Below, piece by piece: positions 14,224 through 62,922 of a stretch of DNA of 64,000 nucleotides. The notes beneath the pieces are model-generated. The model searched no databases. It was not told the origin of the DNA and saw nothing but the letters and a program-made list of their open reading frames with translations. The stretch spans positions 1 through 64,000 of the forward strand of contig CAKZXA010000028.1 of NCBI GenBank assembly GCA_937922045.1. Direction: 5' to 3'. Source of the DNA: an uncultured Acidimicrobiales bacterium (GTDB lineage Bacteria; Actinomycetota; Acidimicrobiia; Acidimicrobiales; SZUA-35). Numbering within the stretch: position 1 is the stretch's first letter; each line of letters opens with the position of its first letter. The translations under genes were made by a program, and so were the position numbers.

Positions 14224-15753
14224 ATGGCTCGTCGATCTGGTGGGCGATCCGCCCGTGTTGCAATGCGTTCGGCCCCGCTGGCCGAGGATGCTCGGGCTGT
14301 TCGCCCGGGTATGAGCGGTGGGCGTTTCAAGCCCCTGTCCGATGCTGATCTGGCCACCGTGTATGAGACGGCCCTCCATCTTTTGGAGGAGTTTGGGATG
14401 GGCCAGGCCACGCCTGAGTTCATCGAGCTGGTAACAAATGCCGGCGGCCGCTACGACGAGCGCGAGCGCCTGCTGTTTCCTCGTTCGGTGGTGGAGGCTG
14501 CGATCGACGTTGCGGCCAAGGAGTTCACGCTCTATAACTTCGCTGGCGACGGTGGTATCGAGCTCGGCGGTGATCGGGTTCACTTCGCTACCGCCGGGGC
14601 CGCGGTAATGGTGCCCGATCGAGACAAGGGTGGTTTCCGCCATTCCACGTTGAACGACTTGTACGACTTCGCCCGCCTGGCCGACACACTCGACAACATC
14701 CACATGTTTGTGCGGACGGTGGTTGCCCGCGATCTTGAAACCTCTCGTGATGTTGATTTGAACACTGCCTTTGCCTCGATGGTTGGCACCTCGAAACCGA
14801 TCGGCACCTCGATGTTCCAGCCGGAACAGGTGCACGAGGTGGCGGCCATGTTCGACCTGGCCCTCGGCGGTGAGGGCGAGTTTCGCAAGCGGCCATTTTG
14901 CAAGGCCAACAACACCTTTGTGGTGCCGCCTCTGCGGTTCGCTGAGGACTCGGCGTTGTGCATGGCCGAGCAGGTTCGGGTTGGCATGCCGATCAACTTG
15001 CTCTCCGCTGGCCAGGCTGGCGCAACGTCGCCGGCCACCCTGGCCGGTTCGCTGGCCCAGGCCCTGGCTGAGTGTCTCGCCGCCTTGACCTGTGTAAATC
15101 TGATGGCTCCTGGTCATCCCTGCATCATGGGTTTGTGGCCCTTCGTCTCGGATCTGCGTACTGGCGCGATGTCTGGTGGTAGTGGTGAAGAGGGTGTGTT
15201 GAATGCGGCAGCTGCCCAGGTTGTCAACTATCTGAACCTCCCGTCGGGTGTTGCTGCCGGTATGGCTGACTCCAAGGTGCCCGACGCCCAGGCCGGCCAC
15301 GAAAAGGGACTCACCGTGACGCTCGCCGCTCAGGCCGGAGCCAATCTGATCTACGAGTCGGCTGGAATGTTGGGCAGCCTTATGATCTGCTCGCCCGAGA
15401 TGATGGTGATCGACAACGATCTTCTGGGCTCGGCCAATCGCACTGTGAGGGGTATCGAGATAACAACCGAAAGCCTGGCGGTTGAAGTGACCAACAATGT
15501 GGTGCACGGTGTTGGCCACTTCCTGGGTCAGGATCAAACGCTGGCGGTGATGCAGACCGAATACATCTATCCGGAGGTCGGGGATCGCCAGAGCCCCGAC
15601 GATTGGAAGGACGCAGGCAGCAAGGATGCTGAGGCCCGGGCCCGTGAATACGTCGACAAGACGCTTGCAACCCACTTCCCCGACCACGTACCCGCCGACC
15701 GGATCGCCAAGATCCGCGACGCCTTCCCTATCGCTTTGCCTGAACAGGCCTAG
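14224..15753 (+). CDS. MttB-family (trimethylamine methyltransferase-like) corrinoid methyltransferase, non-pyrrolysine
   Basis: 509-residue TIM-barrel methyltransferase of the MttB superfamily (FKPLSDADLATVYETALHLL, DRVHFATAGAAV, PINLLSAGQAGATSPATLAG, GAMSGGSGEEGVLNAAAAQV). The frame runs uninterrupted with no in-frame amber codon, so it is a pyrrolysine-free member. Characterised members of that subgroup demethylate glycine betaine or related quaternary amines and pass the methyl group to a corrinoid protein. Sitting directly after two dimethylglycine-dehydrogenase-like genes, it may catalyse the first step, quaternary amine to dimethyl amine. No cognate corrinoid protein or reactivase gene is present in the window. 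Confidence 0.88.
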   Translation: MARRSGGRSARVAMRSAPLAEDARAVRPGMSGGRFKPLSDADLATVYETALHLLEEFGMGQATPEFIELVTNAGGRYDERERLLFPRSVVEAAIDVAAKEFTLYNFAGDGGIELGGDRVHFATAGAAVMVPDRDKGGFRHSTLNDLYDFARLADTLDNIHMFVRTVVARDLETSRDVDLNTAFASMVGTSKPIGTSMFQPEQVHEVAAMFDLALGGEGEFRKRPFCKANNTFVVPPLRFAEDSALCMAEQVRVGMPINLLSAGQAGATSPATLAGSLAQALAECLAALTCVNLMAPGHPCIMGLWPFVSDLRTGAMSGGSGEEGVLNAAAAQVVNYLNLPSGVAAGMADSKVPDAQAGHEKGLTVTLAAQAGANLIYESAGMLGSLMICSPEMMVIDNDLLGSANRTVRGIEITTESLAVEVTNNVVHGVGHFLGQDQTLAVMQTEYIYPEVGDRQSPDDWKDAGSKDAEARAREYVDKTLATHFPDHVPADRIAKIRDAFPIALPEQA

Positions 15754-15771
15754 AACCAACCCACCCATCCG

Positions 15772-16992
15772 CTACTCCAGCTTGGGCCTGTTTCGGCCCG
15801 GTTGGACGACGATGGCGTGAAGCTCACCGTCGGGTCGGTAAATCTTCAGCGTTCGATCGGCTAACAGCTTCACCCGCCACTGCCCTTCGTGCACATGATG
15901 GTGATGGACCGAGCAGAGGGGTATGAGGTTGTCGAGGTCGGTGGGTCCACCGTGCTCCCATTCCAGAATGTGGTGGAGCTGACACCAGGTGATCGGTCGC
16001 TCGCATCCATCCCAGGCACAGGTTTCATGCAGCGTCTTGATGGCGGCCCACTGGGCATCAGTCGCTGTTCGGTAGCGGCGCCCAACCCTGAGAGGCACAC
16101 CTTGTTCGTCGAGCTGAACTCGCCGCAAAACAGCGTCGCAACACAACCGAGCAACCGATTCTGGTGGGAGGTCATGACCGAGCACGGTCTGCCCAATCGT
16201 GTGGTCGTGATAGCCAGACTTCAAGGTCTGGACGTCGACGACGAAACCGACGGAACTCGCCACCCGACCCGTACCTCCGCTGGTGGCCAGTTCGAAGAGC
16301 GCTGACGCCGCGAGGTTGGCATTCTTCACGACTGGTTCCGATGATGCCCCTGCGAGCCGGGTGGTGTGGGCCTCGATCGCGGCGACGAAGCCTTCGTAGC
16401 GTTCAGGGTCGAACGAACCCGAGTAGCGGCCCATGCCTTGTCGGGCGTCGAACCAGTGTCGAAACGCCGATGCCGCCTGCTTCGCGGTGGTGTCGCCGAG
16501 ACCGTGATCGGCCTTGGCTTTATCGACGGTTCGTTTGACGAGAGCGTCGAAGGTGTCGGCCGGCAACTCGGTGGCCCGCTTGGTGAGCTGGTCGAAGTCG
16601 ACCGATGAGCGTTGCTGCTCGGTGAGCGAACGGGTGCGTTGTGCGATGGCGTCGGCGTGGTCACCCGACACCGCCCCTGACGCCATCGCCTCAGCCAGGC
16701 CGGGCATCTCAGCGGCCAGTGCAGCACGAGCAGCTTCACGACGAGCGGTCGATCCTCGAACGGTGCCTTCAGCACTCAACACGGAGGCCGCTCCACCGGA
16801 ACTTCCACTCTCGGCGAGCCGGTTGGCTTGCACGCCAACACGAGTAATCAATCCGTCGATGCAAGACTGAGCCCTACGAAGACGAGTCGTCAGTTCCCGC
16901 AGCCCAGCATCGTCGCAGTCGCTCACTTCCAGACGAGGTGTCTGCCCGATGAGGAGGGCCAACAATTCGAGATAGTCAGAGGGAACAGTCAC
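15772..16992 (-). CDS. DUF222/13E12-type HNH endonuclease
   Basis: 406-residue protein of the actinobacterial 13E12 repeat family. An alpha-helical DUF222 region (about 20-300) is followed by an HNH nuclease motif near the C-terminus (CAWDGCERPITWCQLHHI, then HGGPTDLDNLIPLCSVHHHHVHEG) with paired Cys and His metal ligands. The start is a GTG at 16992; no better start is visible upstream in frame. A LexA-like box and a TAGAGT -10 hexamer lie about 80 bp upstream, consistent with the known SOS control of several mycobacterial homologues. It converges with the MttB gene. The cellular role of this family is unsettled. Confidence 0.9.
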   Translation of the reverse strand: MTVPSDYLELLALLIGQTPRLEVSDCDDAGLRELTTRLRRAQSCIDGLITRVGVQANRLAESGSSGGAASVLSAEGTVRGSTARREAARAALAAEMPGLAEAMASGAVSGDHADAIAQRTRSLTEQQRSSVDFDQLTKRATELPADTFDALVKRTVDKAKADHGLGDTTAKQAASAFRHWFDARQGMGRYSGSFDPERYEGFVAAIEAHTTRLAGASSEPVVKNANLAASALFELATSGGTGRVASSVGFVVDVQTLKSGYHDHTIGQTVLGHDLPPESVARLCCDAVLRRVQLDEQGVPLRVGRRYRTATDAQWAAIKTLHETCAWDGCERPITWCQLHHILEWEHGGPTDLDNLIPLCSVHHHHVHEGQWRVKLLADRTLKIYRPDGELHAIVVQPGRNRPKLE

Positions 16993-58058: not shown

Positions 58059-59243
58059 ATGGTCAGTTCCTACATAGTGGCGGGCGCTCGCACGCCTATC
58101 GGAAAGCTCTCGGGCGGCCTGGCGAGCATGTCGGCGATGGAGCTGGGCGGCAAGGCGATCGCAGCAGCACTTGAGAAGGCCGGTGTCGCTGCTGAACTGG
58201 TCGACTATGTGTACATGGGCCATGTGTTGCAGGCGGGCGCAGGACAGATCACCGCTCGTCAGGCGGCCGTTCACGGTGGGATCCCCATGACCGTGCCGGC
58301 GACCACGATCAACAAGGTCTGCCTGTCGGGCCTTAACGCCATTCACTTGGGCGACATGTTGATCTCCACCGGTCAGGCCGATGTGGTCGTGGTGGGAGGC
58401 ATGGAATCTATGACCAATGCTCCCTACCTGTTGCCGGGTGCTCGCGCTGGCTATCGGGCGGGCGACAAGACCGTTGTCGACTCCATGATGTACGACGGGC
58501 TCTTCTGCGCCTTCGATGCCTGCGCGATGGGCGCAGGCACGGAGAAATACGCGGCCTCGGCCGGGCTCGATCGTGAGCCGCAGGATGCCCTGTCGGCCAT
58601 GTCGCATGAACGGGCTGCCGCTGCCCACAAGGAAGGCAGGTTGGCCGACGAGATTGTCCCGGTCGAGGTGCCGCAGCGCAAGGGTGATCCAGTTGTTGTC
58701 GATGCCGATGAGGGCGTGCGACCGGAGACCACGGCTGCATCGTTGGCCGGGCTACGACCCGCCTTCGATAAGTCTGGCAACATCACTGCGGGCAATGCCT
58801 CCCAGATCTCTGATGGAGCGTCAGCCATGGTGATGGTGAGCCCGGCAAAGGCCGCCGAACTCGGCCTTTCACCGCTCGGTGAGGTCGTCGGGTATGGACA
58901 GGTATCGGGCCCGGATGCGTCTCTGCTGACCCAGCCGTCGCGAGCGATCAACGACGCGCTGGCTCGAACGTCATTGTCGCTGGCCGACATCGACCTCTTC
59001 GAATTGAATGAGGCGTTTGCCGCCGTGGCCTTGGCCTCCATGGCCGACCTGGGCATCTCCGACGAGATCGTGAACGTGAACGGTGGAGCGATCGCTCTCG
59101 GTCACCCAATTGGGGCCAGCGGCAACCGTCTGGCCTTGACGCTTCTGCATGAGCTGCGCCGCCGGGGCGGGGGCATGGGCGCTGCTGCCCTCTGCGGTGG
59201 TGGTGGCCAGGGCGATGCGCTCCTGGTGAAGGCGTTGGCCTAG
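58059..59243 (+). CDS. Acetyl-CoA C-acetyltransferase (thiolase)
   Basis: 394-residue thiolase. The nucleophilic Cys is in TTINKVCLSGLNA (about 88), the catalytic His in NVNGGAIALGHPIGASG (about 348) and the second catalytic Cys in ALCGGGGQGDALLV (about 378). It condenses or cleaves acetoacetyl-CoA. With ccr nearby it fits the early part of the ethylmalonyl-CoA pathway or polyhydroxybutyrate/fatty acid turnover. GAGGAGA stands before the ATG. It is the first gene after the DivIVA terminator. Confidence 0.93.
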   Translation: MVSSYIVAGARTPIGKLSGGLASMSAMELGGKAIAAALEKAGVAAELVDYVYMGHVLQAGAGQITARQAAVHGGIPMTVPATTINKVCLSGLNAIHLGDMLISTGQADVVVVGGMESMTNAPYLLPGARAGYRAGDKTVVDSMMYDGLFCAFDACAMGAGTEKYAASAGLDREPQDALSAMSHERAAAAHKEGRLADEIVPVEVPQRKGDPVVVDADEGVRPETTAASLAGLRPAFDKSGNITAGNASQISDGASAMVMVSPAKAAELGLSPLGEVVGYGQVSGPDASLLTQPSRAINDALARTSLSLADIDLFELNEAFAAVALASMADLGISDEIVNVNGGAIALGHPIGASGNRLALTLLHELRRRGGGMGAAALCGGGGQGDALLVKALA

Positions 59244-59262: not shown

Positions 59263-60648
59263 TCAGGGTCGCCATGCGGGGGTTGGGGTTGATCCCAGCT
59301 CGCTGGCCCCCGACTCCCATCGAAGGAGACCGTTGACGGGCGGGCGTGCTCGTCGCGCCATGCCCCAGCTCGTCGATTCAGGCTCCGGTTCGAGATCATC
59401 GCTTCCAAGGGGAGCCATCTCGGCCTGGAGTGGCCCGGCTGGTCCGGAGCACAGCAGCTCGGCGTGGGCGGCGAGCGAGCTGCGCCAGGTCGACCCGGCA
59501 TTGGTGATGAGGCGTTGCCGCCACCCCTCGATGGCGGCGGCCGCCAGGGTGTAGCCGGTGGCGTGATCGAGGGCTTGCACCGGCAGCGGTGTCGGCGAGG
59601 TGCTCTCGTAGGCGCTCTGGCCTTCGGCGGCGATGCCGCAGGCGATCTGCACGATCGAGTCGAACCCTCGCCGGTTCGCCCACGGGCCGCTATGGCCCCA
59701 TGCGTTGAGCGACACATCGACGAGACCGGGGTTGATGCTACGTCGTTGCTCAATCCCAAAGCCCAGTCCTTCGAGGGCGCCGGGCCGGTAGCCGTGCACG
59801 AGGATGTCGGCCGACTCAAGCAAGTAGGTGAATGTTTCACGACCCTCACCCTTCAGGTCGAGACGGGCGCACCGCTTCCCCAGGGTGACCTCGGGGATCA
59901 CGCCGGGCTCGTTCCAGGTCGGTGGGTCGATCCTCAGTACGTCGGCCCCGAGACCGGCGAGAAAGCGAGTGGCCACCGGGCCGGCAAGCACACGGGTGAG
60001 GTCGAGAACGCGAACCCCATCGAGGGGTCGTTCGGGATTGGCCGTTAGGGAACGCGTTGGCGTGCTGCTCGTTGGGTTGGTGGCGGTGTGCACGAGCGGT
60101 TCCTGAGCGAGCGCCTTGCCCTGCGGGTGCTCAGACCAGCTCTGGCGGTCGTTTAGCGCAACAGCAACACCGCCGCTGGCATAGACAGCTTCCTGAAGCT
60201 CGTGGGCGGACCAGGTGAGGGCCGCGTCGGTGACTGCGGAGCGCTCGTCGGCGCACCCCAGCACGTCGACTGCGGCTCGGCGATGGTGGGGGGCGTTGGT
60301 GTGGAGCCGGATGTGGCCGTCGCTGGTTTGGTAGATGCCGGCGATCTCGTCCCATGCGCTGTCCATCTGCCACTGCTGGGGCTGAATCGTCCAGCCAAAC
60401 CAGAGAGACGCCAGTCGGCGGTTGACGAGGATGGGAGAGGTCGAGGTGGCACCGAGTGTCTGTTGTAGTGCTCGCGTGGCCAGGGCTGCATTGGCAACGC
60501 TGTCGACAGCGAAGTCGGTGACGGCGTAGGCCGACGGAAGTTCGGAGGATGGTCCGTCGGCGTGCGGGCCGTCGTGCTCGATTGGAGCGTCGGCGTTGTG
60601 GCCGATTGCGGCGGTGAAGGTCGGGAGGAATGGGGTGCTGGCGGCCAT
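59263..60648 (-). CDS. CaiB/BaiF (class III) CoA-transferase family protein
   Basis: 461-residue protein with family signatures GVRVLDLTRVLAGPVATRFLAGLGADVLRID, KRCARLDLKGEGRETFTYLL, ADILVHGYRPGALEGLG, and the likely catalytic Asp in RRGFDSIVQIACGIA. An N-terminal segment of about 200 residues precedes the core, unusual for the family and partly similar to a second CaiB half. Members move CoA between organic acids. Start 60648 follows TACCCT by 7 nt. Confidence 0.85.
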   Translation of the reverse strand: MAASTPFLPTFTAAIGHNADAPIEHDGPHADGPSSELPSAYAVTDFAVDSVANAALATRALQQTLGATSTSPILVNRRLASLWFGWTIQPQQWQMDSAWDEIAGIYQTSDGHIRLHTNAPHHRRAAVDVLGCADERSAVTDAALTWSAHELQEAVYASGGVAVALNDRQSWSEHPQGKALAQEPLVHTATNPTSSTPTRSLTANPERPLDGVRVLDLTRVLAGPVATRFLAGLGADVLRIDPPTWNEPGVIPEVTLGKRCARLDLKGEGRETFTYLLESADILVHGYRPGALEGLGFGIEQRRSINPGLVDVSLNAWGHSGPWANRRGFDSIVQIACGIAAEGQSAYESTSPTPLPVQALDHATGYTLAAAAIEGWRQRLITNAGSTWRSSLAAHAELLCSGPAGPLQAEMAPLGSDDLEPEPESTSWGMARRARPPVNGLLRWESGASELGSTPTPAWRP

Positions 60649-60655
60649 AAGTCTA

Positions 60656-60661
60656 AGGGTA
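60656..60661 (-). promoter_or_regulatory. -10 hexamer TACCCT of the CoA-transferase gene (leaderless)
   Basis: On the minus strand TACCCT is followed after 7 nt by the ATG at 60648. Confidence 0.6.
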
Positions 60662-60726
60662 GGTTCATGCCTCGGAAGCGGCTGGCGTCAACGCCTTCAG
60701 AATCTCAAAAAGATGAAGAAAATGTC

Positions 60727-60755
60727 TTGCCTTTTCAAAAGGCTCGCTGTAACAT
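60727..60755 (+). promoter_or_regulatory. Sigma-70 promoter of the candidate ncRNA
   Basis: TTGCCT (60727-60732), exactly 17 bp, then TAACAT (60750-60755). Transcription would begin near 60762 and run to the terminator at 60900-60924. Confidence 0.6.
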
Positions 60756-60761
60756 AAAGGC

Positions 60762-60925
60762 AACATCGTTACGACGACTCAGTGGCCGGTTTACCCATAC
60801 CGCCCGCGCCACGGTCACTGGGTCGTTGTAGCGTGCAACTTCCGGGTCGGTGCACCCTCTCCCCGCCGGCCCGGTCGTCGCGTTAAAGAATCATTGACTA
60901 ACCCCACTCTTTAGTGGGGTTTTTC
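60762..60925 (+). ncRNA. Candidate structured intergenic RNA (~165 nt)
   Basis: Between its own promoter and a strong terminator lie two long hairpins. Stem 1 pairs 60767-60784 with 60816-60833 (18 pairs including a few G-U), closing a 31-nt C-rich loop. Stem 2 pairs 60842-60850 with 60866-60874 (9 pairs), closing a loop containing CCCTCTCCCC. The third hairpin is the terminator. No sizeable ORF of good quality runs through it, although a 54-codon frame begins at 60668, upstream of the promoter. Two C-rich loops before a terminator recall the actinobacterial 6C RNA, but I cannot confirm that family. It could also be an untranslated leader ending prematurely. Confidence 0.55.
60900..60924 (+). 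terminator. Rho-independent terminator of the candidate ncRNA
   Basis: AACCCCACT (60900-60908) and AGTGGGGTT (60913-60921) form a 9-bp stem with a 4-nt loop, followed by a T run (TTTTTCTT). The T run is downstream on the plus strand, so it ends a plus-strand transcript; no plus-strand gene lies upstream other than the candidate RNA. Confidence 0.85.
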
Positions 60926-61179
60926 TTCGCCCGGGCAGCCGATTGTAGGCGAAACAGCCTAGATGTCGCTGGTCTTCGGTGCTTGGTGTGTCCTGGGATG
61001 ACGGCTGATGCGAATGACAGACTTGTGTTTTGATGTGACGATTCAGGGTGTTGGGCCATTCACAACCATTGGGCCGACTTGCAACACTGAAACTCTCTTT
61101 TTGGTCACGATTTCGTAATATAAGCAGCGACATGCATCAACAAGCAGATAGTTGAGACACCATGGTTTGAGGGAGGTGG

Positions 61180-62916
61180 CTAGCGATTGATCCAGCGGAA
61201 GAACTTGGATGAGGCCCAGGAGTTGATCACCAACTCCTTTGGCGCCCAGCCCCGCTGAGCGGTGAGCACGCCGTACTCCATGCGCCCCAGTTCTGAGACG
61301 TGGTGTGAGTCGGTGTTGATCACAAGTTTGACCTCTCGATCAACGGCACGGCGTACGACGTCGGAGGCCGCGTCGAGCCGTTGGAGTGCTCCATTGATCT
61401 CGAGAGCGACGTCGTTGGCTACAAGGGCGTCGAGCACCTTGTCTATGTCGAGCTCGATGCCGGGGCGGCGCCCGATGTATCGCCCCGTGAGGTGGCCAAT
61501 GGAGTTCACCGTTGGATCTTCGATAGCGGTGATCAGCCGGCGGGTTTGTTCTTCAACCGATTGGTCGAAATGGGAATGGACCGAAGCCACGGTGTAGTCG
61601 AACAGGGCACGAAAGTCGTCCTCGTAGTCGAGTCCGCCGTCGGGGCCGATGTTTAGTTCGCAGCCCCACAGCACCGTCATGTCCGGGTACGACTTCTGCA
61701 CCTCGGCGATCACGTCGCGGTGTTCGAGCATTTCCTCGGCGCTGGAGCCGTTGATGGCGAGGTCTTCGCCGTGGTCGGTGATGGCGAGGTATGCGTAGCC
61801 TTGGGCTGCGGCCTCGGCCACCATGTCGGCCACCGATGAACGACCGTCGCCCGAGCGATCGGTGTGATAGTGCAGATCACCCTTGATGTGCTTGCGTTGA
61901 ATCAGATCCGGTAGTTCTCCCTCGGTTTCGCCGCTGGCTTCGCGCAGAGGGGGAGGGATGTAGGGAAGATCGAGCGCCTTGTAGATGGACGCCTCAGATT
62001 TGGAGGCAACGACCTTGTCGGTCTCGGTGTCCATCAGGCCGTATTCGTTGAGTAGGAGGCCCCGGTCCATCGCCCGCTGCCGCAGGGCGATGTTGTGCGC
62101 TTTGGAGCCGGTGAAGTAGAGAGTGGCCGCACCGAACTGAGACGACTTCACCACCCTCACGTCTACCTGGAGCCCTGAGCGTGTGAGGAACGATGTCTTG
62201 GTATCGCCAGACACGACGATGTCGACTGCTTCGGGATGATTGCGCACCGCTTCCATCACCGGAATCGGCTTCGACGAGGCGACCGTGATGTCGATGTCGC
62301 CGATGGTCTCGGACATGCGTCGCAGGCTGCCACAGAAGGCCACCTTTGAAACCCCGGGCAGCGCTTCGAGATCGGCGACGAGCCGTTCGGCCAAGGGCAG
62401 AGCGTCTGCGATCGGAGTTCTTGTGTCTTTGCCGGTCAGGCCGAGTCGCTCGATGGCCTTGGCAATCTTGGCCTCGCTGGTAGCACCCATACGGGGCAGG
62501 GTGCGTAACTGTTCGGCCTCGATGGCGGCCTTGAGCTGCTCAACGTTTTCCACGCCGAGTTCGGCCCTCACCAGCTTCAGCGTTTTCGGCCCGAGCCCCG
62601 GGATCTTCGACAGCTGCACAAACTCGGGCGGGTACTTCTCTCGCAACCGATCGACCTTCTCGACCGAACCGGTTTCGATCAGCTCCCTGATCTTGGTGGC
62701 GGTGGCCTTGCCGACGCCATCGATCTTGGTGAGCTCGGCCGCCGACATGCCAGCGATAGCGCCGCTGTGAGCCTCCAACGCCAACTTGGCCTTCTCATAG
62801 GCTCGCACTTTGAAGGACTGAGGCGACTCCTCCTCCAGCGTGGTGAGCGTGATCAGCTCGCTCAACATGGCGTTGATATCAGCGGTGGTAACGGGTTTTG
62901 GATCTGGGGCAGCCAT
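61180..62916 (-). CDS. polX: PolX-family DNA polymerase with PHP exonuclease domain
   Basis: 578-residue PolX. Helix-hairpin-helix motifs (GVGKATATKI, IPGLGPKTLKLV) lie in the N-terminal third. The polymerase palm has the metal-binding Asp pair in ETIGDIDITVAS and a further Asp in LQVDVRVV. The C-terminal PHP domain (about 340-578) begins HIKGDLHYHTDRSGDG and contains AITDHGEDL, GCELNIG and INTDSHH, all metal ligands. It should act in base-excision or end repair. Start 62916 is supported by TAGACT 6 nt upstream; the frame has a TTG at 62922. Confidence 0.93.
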   Translation of the reverse strand: MAAPDPKPVTTADINAMLSELITLTTLEEESPQSFKVRAYEKAKLALEAHSGAIAGMSAAELTKIDGVGKATATKIRELIETGSVEKVDRLREKYPPEFVQLSKIPGLGPKTLKLVRAELGVENVEQLKAAIEAEQLRTLPRMGATSEAKIAKAIERLGLTGKDTRTPIADALPLAERLVADLEALPGVSKVAFCGSLRRMSETIGDIDITVASSKPIPVMEAVRNHPEAVDIVVSGDTKTSFLTRSGLQVDVRVVKSSQFGAATLYFTGSKAHNIALRQRAMDRGLLLNEYGLMDTETDKVVASKSEASIYKALDLPYIPPPLREASGETEGELPDLIQRKHIKGDLHYHTDRSGDGRSSVADMVAEAAAQGYAYLAITDHGEDLAINGSSAEEMLEHRDVIAEVQKSYPDMTVLWGCELNIGPDGGLDYEDDFRALFDYTVASVHSHFDQSVEEQTRRLITAIEDPTVNSIGHLTGRYIGRRPGIELDIDKVLDALVANDVALEINGALQRLDAASDVVRRAVDREVKLVINTDSHHVSELGRMEYGVLTAQRGWAPKELVINSWASSKFFRWINR

Positions 62917-62922
62917 GCCCAA

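Follow-up and report, generated by a model that had tools for sequence, protein, structure and literature searches.

A predicted small RNA with C-rich loops, conserved among Acidimicrobiales and lying outside the searched Rfam families

The window analyzed here, a 64,000-nucleotide stretch of DNA from an uncultured Acidimicrobiales bacterium (contig CAKZXA010000028.1, positions 1 to 64,000), very probably encodes, as judged by comparison with related genomes, a conserved small RNA that belongs to none of the Rfam families searched. Compensatory changes in two stems, a conserved promoter, and occurrence in 16 families together argue strongly for an independent RNA of about 165-170 nt, and so support the RNA of ~165 nt proposed in the first-pass annotation of this DNA. 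The parts of the locus, in window coordinates, are as follows.

58059..59243, plus strand: thiolase-like gene, which is also the upstream neighbor in a number of relatives
59263..60648, minus strand: CoA-transferase gene, between the thiolase-like gene and the RNA in the window genome
60727..60732, plus strand: -35 element TTGCCT; CTTGTCA at the same site in most aligned relatives
60748..60755, plus strand: extended -10 element TG-TAACAT, of which TAACAT itself is 60750-60755
60757..60926, plus strand: predicted RNA, its putative start placed from the -10 element and its end from the U-run
60760-60764, plus strand: conserved GCAAC, 3' of the -10 element
60767..60833, plus strand: hairpin 1, with a 22-bp stem (arms 60767-60788 and 60812-60833) and a 23-nt loop
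60793..60811, plus strand: loop 1 core ACCCATACCGCCCGCGCCA; the alignment rows were selected by the same motif
60842..60874, plus strand: hairpin 2, with an 11-bp stem (arms 60842-60852 and 60864-60874) and the 11-nt loop CACCCTCTCCC at 60853-60863
60875..60884, plus strand: conserved tail TCGTCGCGTT directly 3' of hairpin 2, of putative function
60900..60928, plus strand: intrinsic terminator, a 9-bp stem and U-run; not found at this site in most relatives
61180..62922, minus strand: PolX gene, convergent with the RNA

The gene at 58059..59243 is one that, from its sequence, we take to encode a thiolase, and the names CoA-transferase (59263..60648) and PolX (61180..62922) are carried over from the first-pass annotation. 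Both genes immediately flanking the RNA locus are on the minus strand. The recR gene lies 6.6 kb downstream of the RNA (67517-68116 of the contig, minus strand), such that the RNA is still directed toward recR, with PolX, a gene presumably related to rpe, and other frames between them.

The window promoter comprises TTGCCT and TAACAT separated by a 17-nt spacer, as had been claimed for the plus strand. By our own count it matches 8 of 12 consensus letters and was not listed by the promoter scan, for which the limit is 9; its support consequently derives from conservation, the -35 element reading CTTGTCA at an unchanged position in most relatives. Of 397 genomes of the order, 30 contain a strict promoter pattern (TTGTC-N16-19-GTAANRTRANNGCAA), each as a single copy, a count that is low because the window's own promoter misses the strict pattern. 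The reversed pattern has no match in the same 397 genomes, and the pattern itself has none in a phylum-wide sample of 396 genomes, of which 30 (own genome included) belong to the order. In 28 of the 30 strict matches the promoter points at recR, whose C-terminal motif is 114 to 675 nt away, the exceptions being a locus in genus g11 (L294) and L275, of which the latter is probably a chance match; a thiolase motif occurs within 700 nt upstream in 10 of the 30. When promoters were scored in 59 recR flanks, hand-picked at one to three per family, 12 reached 16 on the expected strand, a cut chosen after the scores were known, and none of the 59 did so on the opposite strand (maximum 12.9). The promoter finder missed two loci (L009 and L024) and mis-sited a third (L017), with promoters visible in all three, and gave none for L021 in the set used for loop folding, where a promoter is also readable.

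The region has a predicted fold energy of -88.3 kcal/mol, against -58.2 +/- 4.1 for shuffled sequences (z -7.3), and none of 200 shuffles equals it. The two hairpins described previously are present, but their stems measure 22 and 11 bp rather than the 18 and 9 bp first given. In the alignment of hairpin 1 (A1; 21 rows, 20 of them distinct), 98.4% of cells are paired with standard pairs and 11 of 22 pairs exhibit both-sided changes, values which none of 500 shuffles reach, and sliding the structure by one to three columns leaves 31.8-54.3% of cells paired. The hairpin 2 alignment (A2; 23 rows) has 97.6% of cells paired and both-sided changes in 4 of 11 pairs, again reached by none of 500 shuffles, with slid structures pairing 19.9-52.2%. 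A count of further standard pair types was no better than in shuffles, being reached by 133 of 500 for A1 and 129 of 500 for A2. From 16 loci, RNAalifold recovered exactly these two stems, with 33 pairs, 13 of them changed on both sides; this alignment (A3) was restricted to loci where hairpins 1 and 2 both have the usual form. As the rows of A1 were selected by the loop-1 pattern, and those of A2 by CTCTCCC, loop constancy within these alignments arises partly by construction. Three loci were left out of the alignments, namely L028, which looked coding by eye (E 8e-4), and L029 and L030, which are short matches from other families (E about 0.001). Comparison shows both predicted stems to be maintained by compensatory changes, and conservation of the stems in relatives, which the first-pass annotation had set in advance as a test of its proposal, was thereby confirmed. 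Whole stems have also been exchanged: at L014 the stem of hairpin 2 is replaced by one of 15 bp around ACTCTCCCAA, and in two genomes (G016 and G026) the stem of hairpin 1 is replaced and the loop contains CAGCCCGCCCGCGCC.

A search with 202 bases in 61 genomes (60 relatives and the window's own) matched 9 of the 11 other genomes of the genus at 86-93% identity, over query positions from ~18-22, in the -10 region, to 157-158, in the tail after hairpin 2, with the terminator falling outside. Matches in other genera of the family were weaker; at E<=10 every one of the 61 genomes lists something, and matches were followed only to about 2e-5 (L002-L027). Among 39 genomes of the family, the hairpin 1 model (R1) matched 24 and the hairpin 2 model (R2) 30, and with weak matches read individually, one or the other identifies solid copies in 34. 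Neither model found a solid copy in the remaining five (G003, G006, G020, G022, and G035), R2 matches in G003 (L089, coding-looking) and G006 (L090, with another loop) not being counted as copies. The promoter and hairpin 2 are kept, and hairpin 1 is different, in genera g2, g9, and g10 (L021, L022, L023, L025, and L027). Hairpin 2 is found in all five genomes of genus g11, where the promoter is readable at four loci (L084, L085, L087, and L088) and the contig of the fifth (L083) ends before it. At three of these (L084, L085, and L087), a dnaX-like gene of the same orientation, its start identified by eye against dnaX found elsewhere in the analysis, is located downstream of the promoter and hairpin 2, so that the RNA there might serve as a leader.

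Across the order, R1 matched 11 of 298 genomes and R2 42, many of the latter being weak and probably chance matches or other RNAs. One R1 match (L095) is without the loop and promoter; five other loci (L091-L094 and L099) combine the promoter with a long hairpin whose loop contains CCGCCCGC, and recR, which was located in 145 of 148 genomes of the order, adjoins each. Promoter and hairpin together occur in 16 families (f1, f3, f6, f7, f17, f23, f24, f26, f34, f35, f44, f52, f54, f57, f58, and f59) of the 61 family labels in the order samples, with f17 (L193) having the promoter without a clear C-rich loop. In most genomes of the order, no copy was detected with R1, R2, or the strict promoter pattern. 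The loop-1 pattern occurs in 60 stretches of named genome contigs, which by title comprise 19 from Acidimicrobiales, Acidimicrobiia, or Acidimicrobiaceae, one from an uncultured actinobacterium (L162), and 40 from other organisms. R1 matches exactly the first 20, all of them metagenome assemblies, at 75 bits or more; the 40 others are chance letter matches, as R1 gives them at most 21.8 bits. The RNA is found once per genome. A mobile element was considered and set aside, the loop-1 pattern having no matches in viral contigs.

Both predicted stem-loops of the window RNA carry C-rich loops. The longest run of C in either loop is three, or four in loop 2 with the first paired C included, and UCCC is present in the single-stranded predicted loop 2 (CACCCUCUCCC). 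Of 34 homologues tried, 33 yielded a promoter, and in 24 of these the minimum-energy fold of the first 190 nt includes a terminal loop of at least 7 nt with at least 50% C; base-shuffled sequences averaged 8.3 (maximum 15), a lenient control because shuffling destroys the stems too. Within 204 nt 3' of the promoter, 29 of the 30 strict matches contain CCGCCC (21) or a C-rich pyrimidine run (23), compared with a base-shuffled mean of 18.4 (maximum 24) and 7 on the opposite strand. Such segments occur in 28 of 30 within the first 130 nt downstream, and in 10 of 30 over an equal length upstream of the promoter; some of the 190-204-nt stretches underlying these loop and segment counts extend into recR.

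We consider the chances evenly balanced that this locus is a free-standing non-coding RNA gene, the C-rich loops of which pair with mRNAs to regulate them. The predicted RNA would be transcribed on the plus strand from its own housekeeping-type promoter, and its end would be set by hairpin 2 and the tail, or by a local U-run hairpin. The loops CCGCCCGCGCC (hairpin 1) and CCCUCUCCC (hairpin 2) may then serve as single-stranded, C-rich seeds for pairing with G-rich segments of mRNAs, above all near ribosome-binding sites, and the pairing would alter translation or stability, probably without Hfq. Such pairing is the most likely reading, and matches what accessible portions of published reports describe for 6C RNA, said there to interact with panD and dnaB mRNAs (PMC8628891), and for UCCC-motif RNAs, including LhrC, whose UCCC sites bind a ribosome-binding site (PMC4132741). 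A near-fixed loop of 19 nt, however, exceeds what a seed requires.

Potential targets were sought in 396 kb of the window's own genome, across 256 crude start regions defined by the longest frames and their best Shine-Dalgarno-like start. Loop 1 exhibited no preference for these start regions, with 39 of 60 shuffled loops performing equally or better. The difference between start regions and gene interiors for loop 2 exceeded that of 57 of 60 shuffled loops (matched by 3), an outcome that any anti-Shine-Dalgarno-like sequence might give. Mean binding of loop 2 to start regions was weaker than that of shuffles (-8.83 vs -9.35 kcal/mol), and its strong sites at -10 kcal/mol numbered 94, fewer than the shuffled mean of 103. 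Pairing by loop 1 is thus unsupported by the target statistics, and pairing by loop 2 is supported weakly at best. The best single candidate (L263:7450-7480), complementary to both loops, is at the start of a proV-like gene, which we take to encode a glycine-betaine-type ABC transporter. This candidate was rejected, as the site is absent from the best other match in the genus (L268, 69% identity) and from four more distant sequences, perhaps paralogues; the gene itself has an E<=1e-100 match in 4 of 12 genomes of the genus, own included.

It is possible, though less likely, that the RNA instead binds or sequesters a protein which prefers C-rich single strands, the stems merely presenting the loops; a cold-shock-domain protein, Rho, or RNA polymerase would presumably be candidate partners. 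The near-constancy of loop 1 makes protein binding a serious rival: 18 of 19 letters are constant across all 21 rows of A1, selected by that motif, and of the 24 genomes that R1 matched, 22 carry the core ACCCATACCGCCCGCGCCA (a variant is found in G016 and G026). The core CCGCCCGC moreover recurs in other families on unrelated stems, and the negative or weak target statistics also favor this explanation. Loops 1 and 2 are, however, unlike in sequence, and those C-rich RNAs of tested role pair with mRNAs, according to the available parts of the reports (PMC8628891, PMC4132741). More speculatively, and with considerable doubt, we suggest that this may be a regulatory RNA of the Acidimicrobiales long tied to a dnaX-recR replication and repair locus, in which stems have been swapped freely and the apical loop CCGCCCGCGCC kept because it docks onto a single dedicated partner, either a protein or one universal RNA, instead of assorted mRNAs, and which would form a class of its own standing in for 6C.

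At gathering level, Rfam 15 gave no match at the site within the 64-kb window, and relaxed hits there (mir-2072, Xcc1, Hrs1, Trp_leader, and others) were discarded as far below their cut-offs. In two sets of homologous or related loci, numbering 14 and 15, no Rfam family matched at E<=0.1. The sole Rfam match within the window, PYLIS_3 (69.1 bits, 15262-15361, plus strand), is inside a gene (14224-15864) that we take to be MttB-like; it looks like coding similarity rather than a pyrrolysine site, as the frame, when translated with TAG as a residue, has a single TAG, close to its 3' end and beyond the match, and no tRNA gene was found in the 64-kb window. The 6C model (RF01066) had no hit at E<=10 in a 501-base region around the site (60600-61100), and none in 41 genomes, own included. 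By covariance model the window RNA is not 6C, and it is 6C-like in plan only: of the earlier suggestion that it might be related to 6C or be new, the former fails by this measure and the latter stands, no Rfam family matching. We regard the predicted RNA as a new family, 6C-like in plan, with its transcription and function inferred.

The likeness to 6C RNA (RF01066; B11 in mycobacteria) lies in an actinobacterial, intergenic RNA of two stem-loops with C-rich loops, and in a U-run that follows the second hairpin at two 6C loci (L240 and L241), much as the terminator follows in the window RNA. In the accessible sections of the 6C literature, the RNA is defined by about six consecutive C in each loop (PMC4046766), a feature lacking in the window RNA; is expressed, at about 93-100 nt (PMC8628891, PMC4046766); and is located near the Ms1 gene in mycobacteria and Streptomyces coelicolor (PMC6582537). 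The window RNA is by contrast placed next to the thiolase gene and, 6.6 kb away, recR, and with respect to an Ms1 neighborhood, PYLIS_3 is the one Rfam match in the window. The same body of work, as far as its available text goes, reports 6C to be higher in stationary phase in Mycobacterium mucogenicum, to increase about two-fold in Corynebacterium glutamicum on mitomycin C (another study finding no change under its stresses), and to inhibit growth when overmade (among PMC6582537, PMC6789036, PMC8628891, PMC4046766, and PMC4132741). The UCCC-motif sRNAs LhrC, RsaE, and FsrA (PMC4132741, in the parts available) likewise have UCCC in a single-stranded loop, here loop 2, but they belong to another phylum, LhrC is multi-copy and the window RNA single, and the two are likened by description only.

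That the window RNA is a diverged but true 6C orthologue, invisible to the Rfam model, is unlikely. In its favor are the two hairpins with C-rich loops in an actinobacterium, the second alike in layout to that of 6C loci, together with the weakness of the RF01066 miss as evidence: the model rings rarely, with matches in 7 of 119 genomes of the phylum sample (4 above the cut-off), and even Corynebacterium glutamicum, where 6C is known, falls below the cut-off. The absence of any RF01066 hit at the site or in the 41 genomes, and of a run of six C, nevertheless weighs against orthology. When folded, 6C loci from across the phylum have 7-13 bp in the first hairpin, whose loops of 8-10 nt include GACCCCCCG, and about 13-14 bp in the second, where TCCTCCCCCCCT is among the loops, whereas hairpin 1 of the window RNA has 22 bp and a 23-nt loop. 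Further, five loci elsewhere in the order read as separate, 6C-like RNAs with loops of C6 to C9 and a TCGCGTC tail (L101, L106, L107, L112, and L115, around position 1501; families f31, f16, and f50). Four of these loci were folded, with the second hairpin present in all and the first clear in L106 and L115, and none of the five has an Rfam match at E<=0.1. These candidate RNAs, which surfaced only as weak R2 matches, share the C-rich loops and a tail like the window's TCGTCGCGTT, but differ in their longer C runs and other places, and none was seen with the recR-type promoter.

The strong terminator ascribed to the RNA is present in the window (9 bp and a U-run) but is not a general feature, a scan having found a U-run terminator at 5 of 27 family loci (L001, which is the window, L012, L015, L020, and L024). 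Three of these (L015, L020, and L024) are without the usual hairpin 2, and in L014, with its altered hairpin 2, CTTTTGTTTT directly follows that hairpin; together these patterns suggest that elsewhere hairpin 2 with the tail TCGTCGCGT ends the RNA, the tail TCGTCGCGTT being a possible RNA end in relatives that lack the U-run. Counting against such an end, neither hairpin 2 nor a terminator was found at L016. Strong hairpins with TCGCGT or GCGCGT close behind them were also observed at L098, L102, L103, L104, and L109 (matches at 1501) and at L091 (minus strand near 1260), and perhaps represent a type of terminator without a U-run in these bacteria. Mean energy upstream of TCGCGT (-15.8) is below that of each of 25 control hexamers (lowest -14.5), a result biased because many loci were picked via hairpin 2.

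These elements could be read as mere transcription terminators between convergent genes, given that at 28 of 30 loci they face recR at its 3' end and that, in the biased set above, strong hairpins precede TCGCGT elsewhere too. We consider this very improbable, since the element has its own conserved promoter in this order, found in none of the 396 phylum genomes, hairpin 1 lacks a U-run and carries a near-fixed loop of 19 nt that would be superfluous for a terminator, and at three g11 loci the element stands before a dnaX-like gene. A short protein gene or chance palindrome, as an 89-aa plus-strand frame overlapping hairpin 1 in the window and one frame stop-free in 12 of 16 relatives might suggest, we take to be refuted by the fold energy and compensatory changes, by stops in all six frames, each frame being interrupted in 4 to 15 of the 16 relatives (the best plus-strand frame is open over only about 110 nt), and by segment lengths that vary by single bases (65-68 and 106-113 nt). 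With no frame kept in these relatives and both adjoining genes on the minus strand, the earlier statement that no plus-strand protein gene accounts for the terminator holds.

No description of a small RNA or of 6C in Acidimicrobi was found among the top-ranked entries of an open-access library, to which the search was confined; hence small RNAs may so far have gone undescribed in this order. The promoter, structure, and loops are clear enough for an Rfam family and for annotation across the order. Moreover, the predicted RNA would provide a second actinobacterial RNA with C-rich loops for comparison with 6C, the role of which, in the accessible parts of the literature, is still unsettled.
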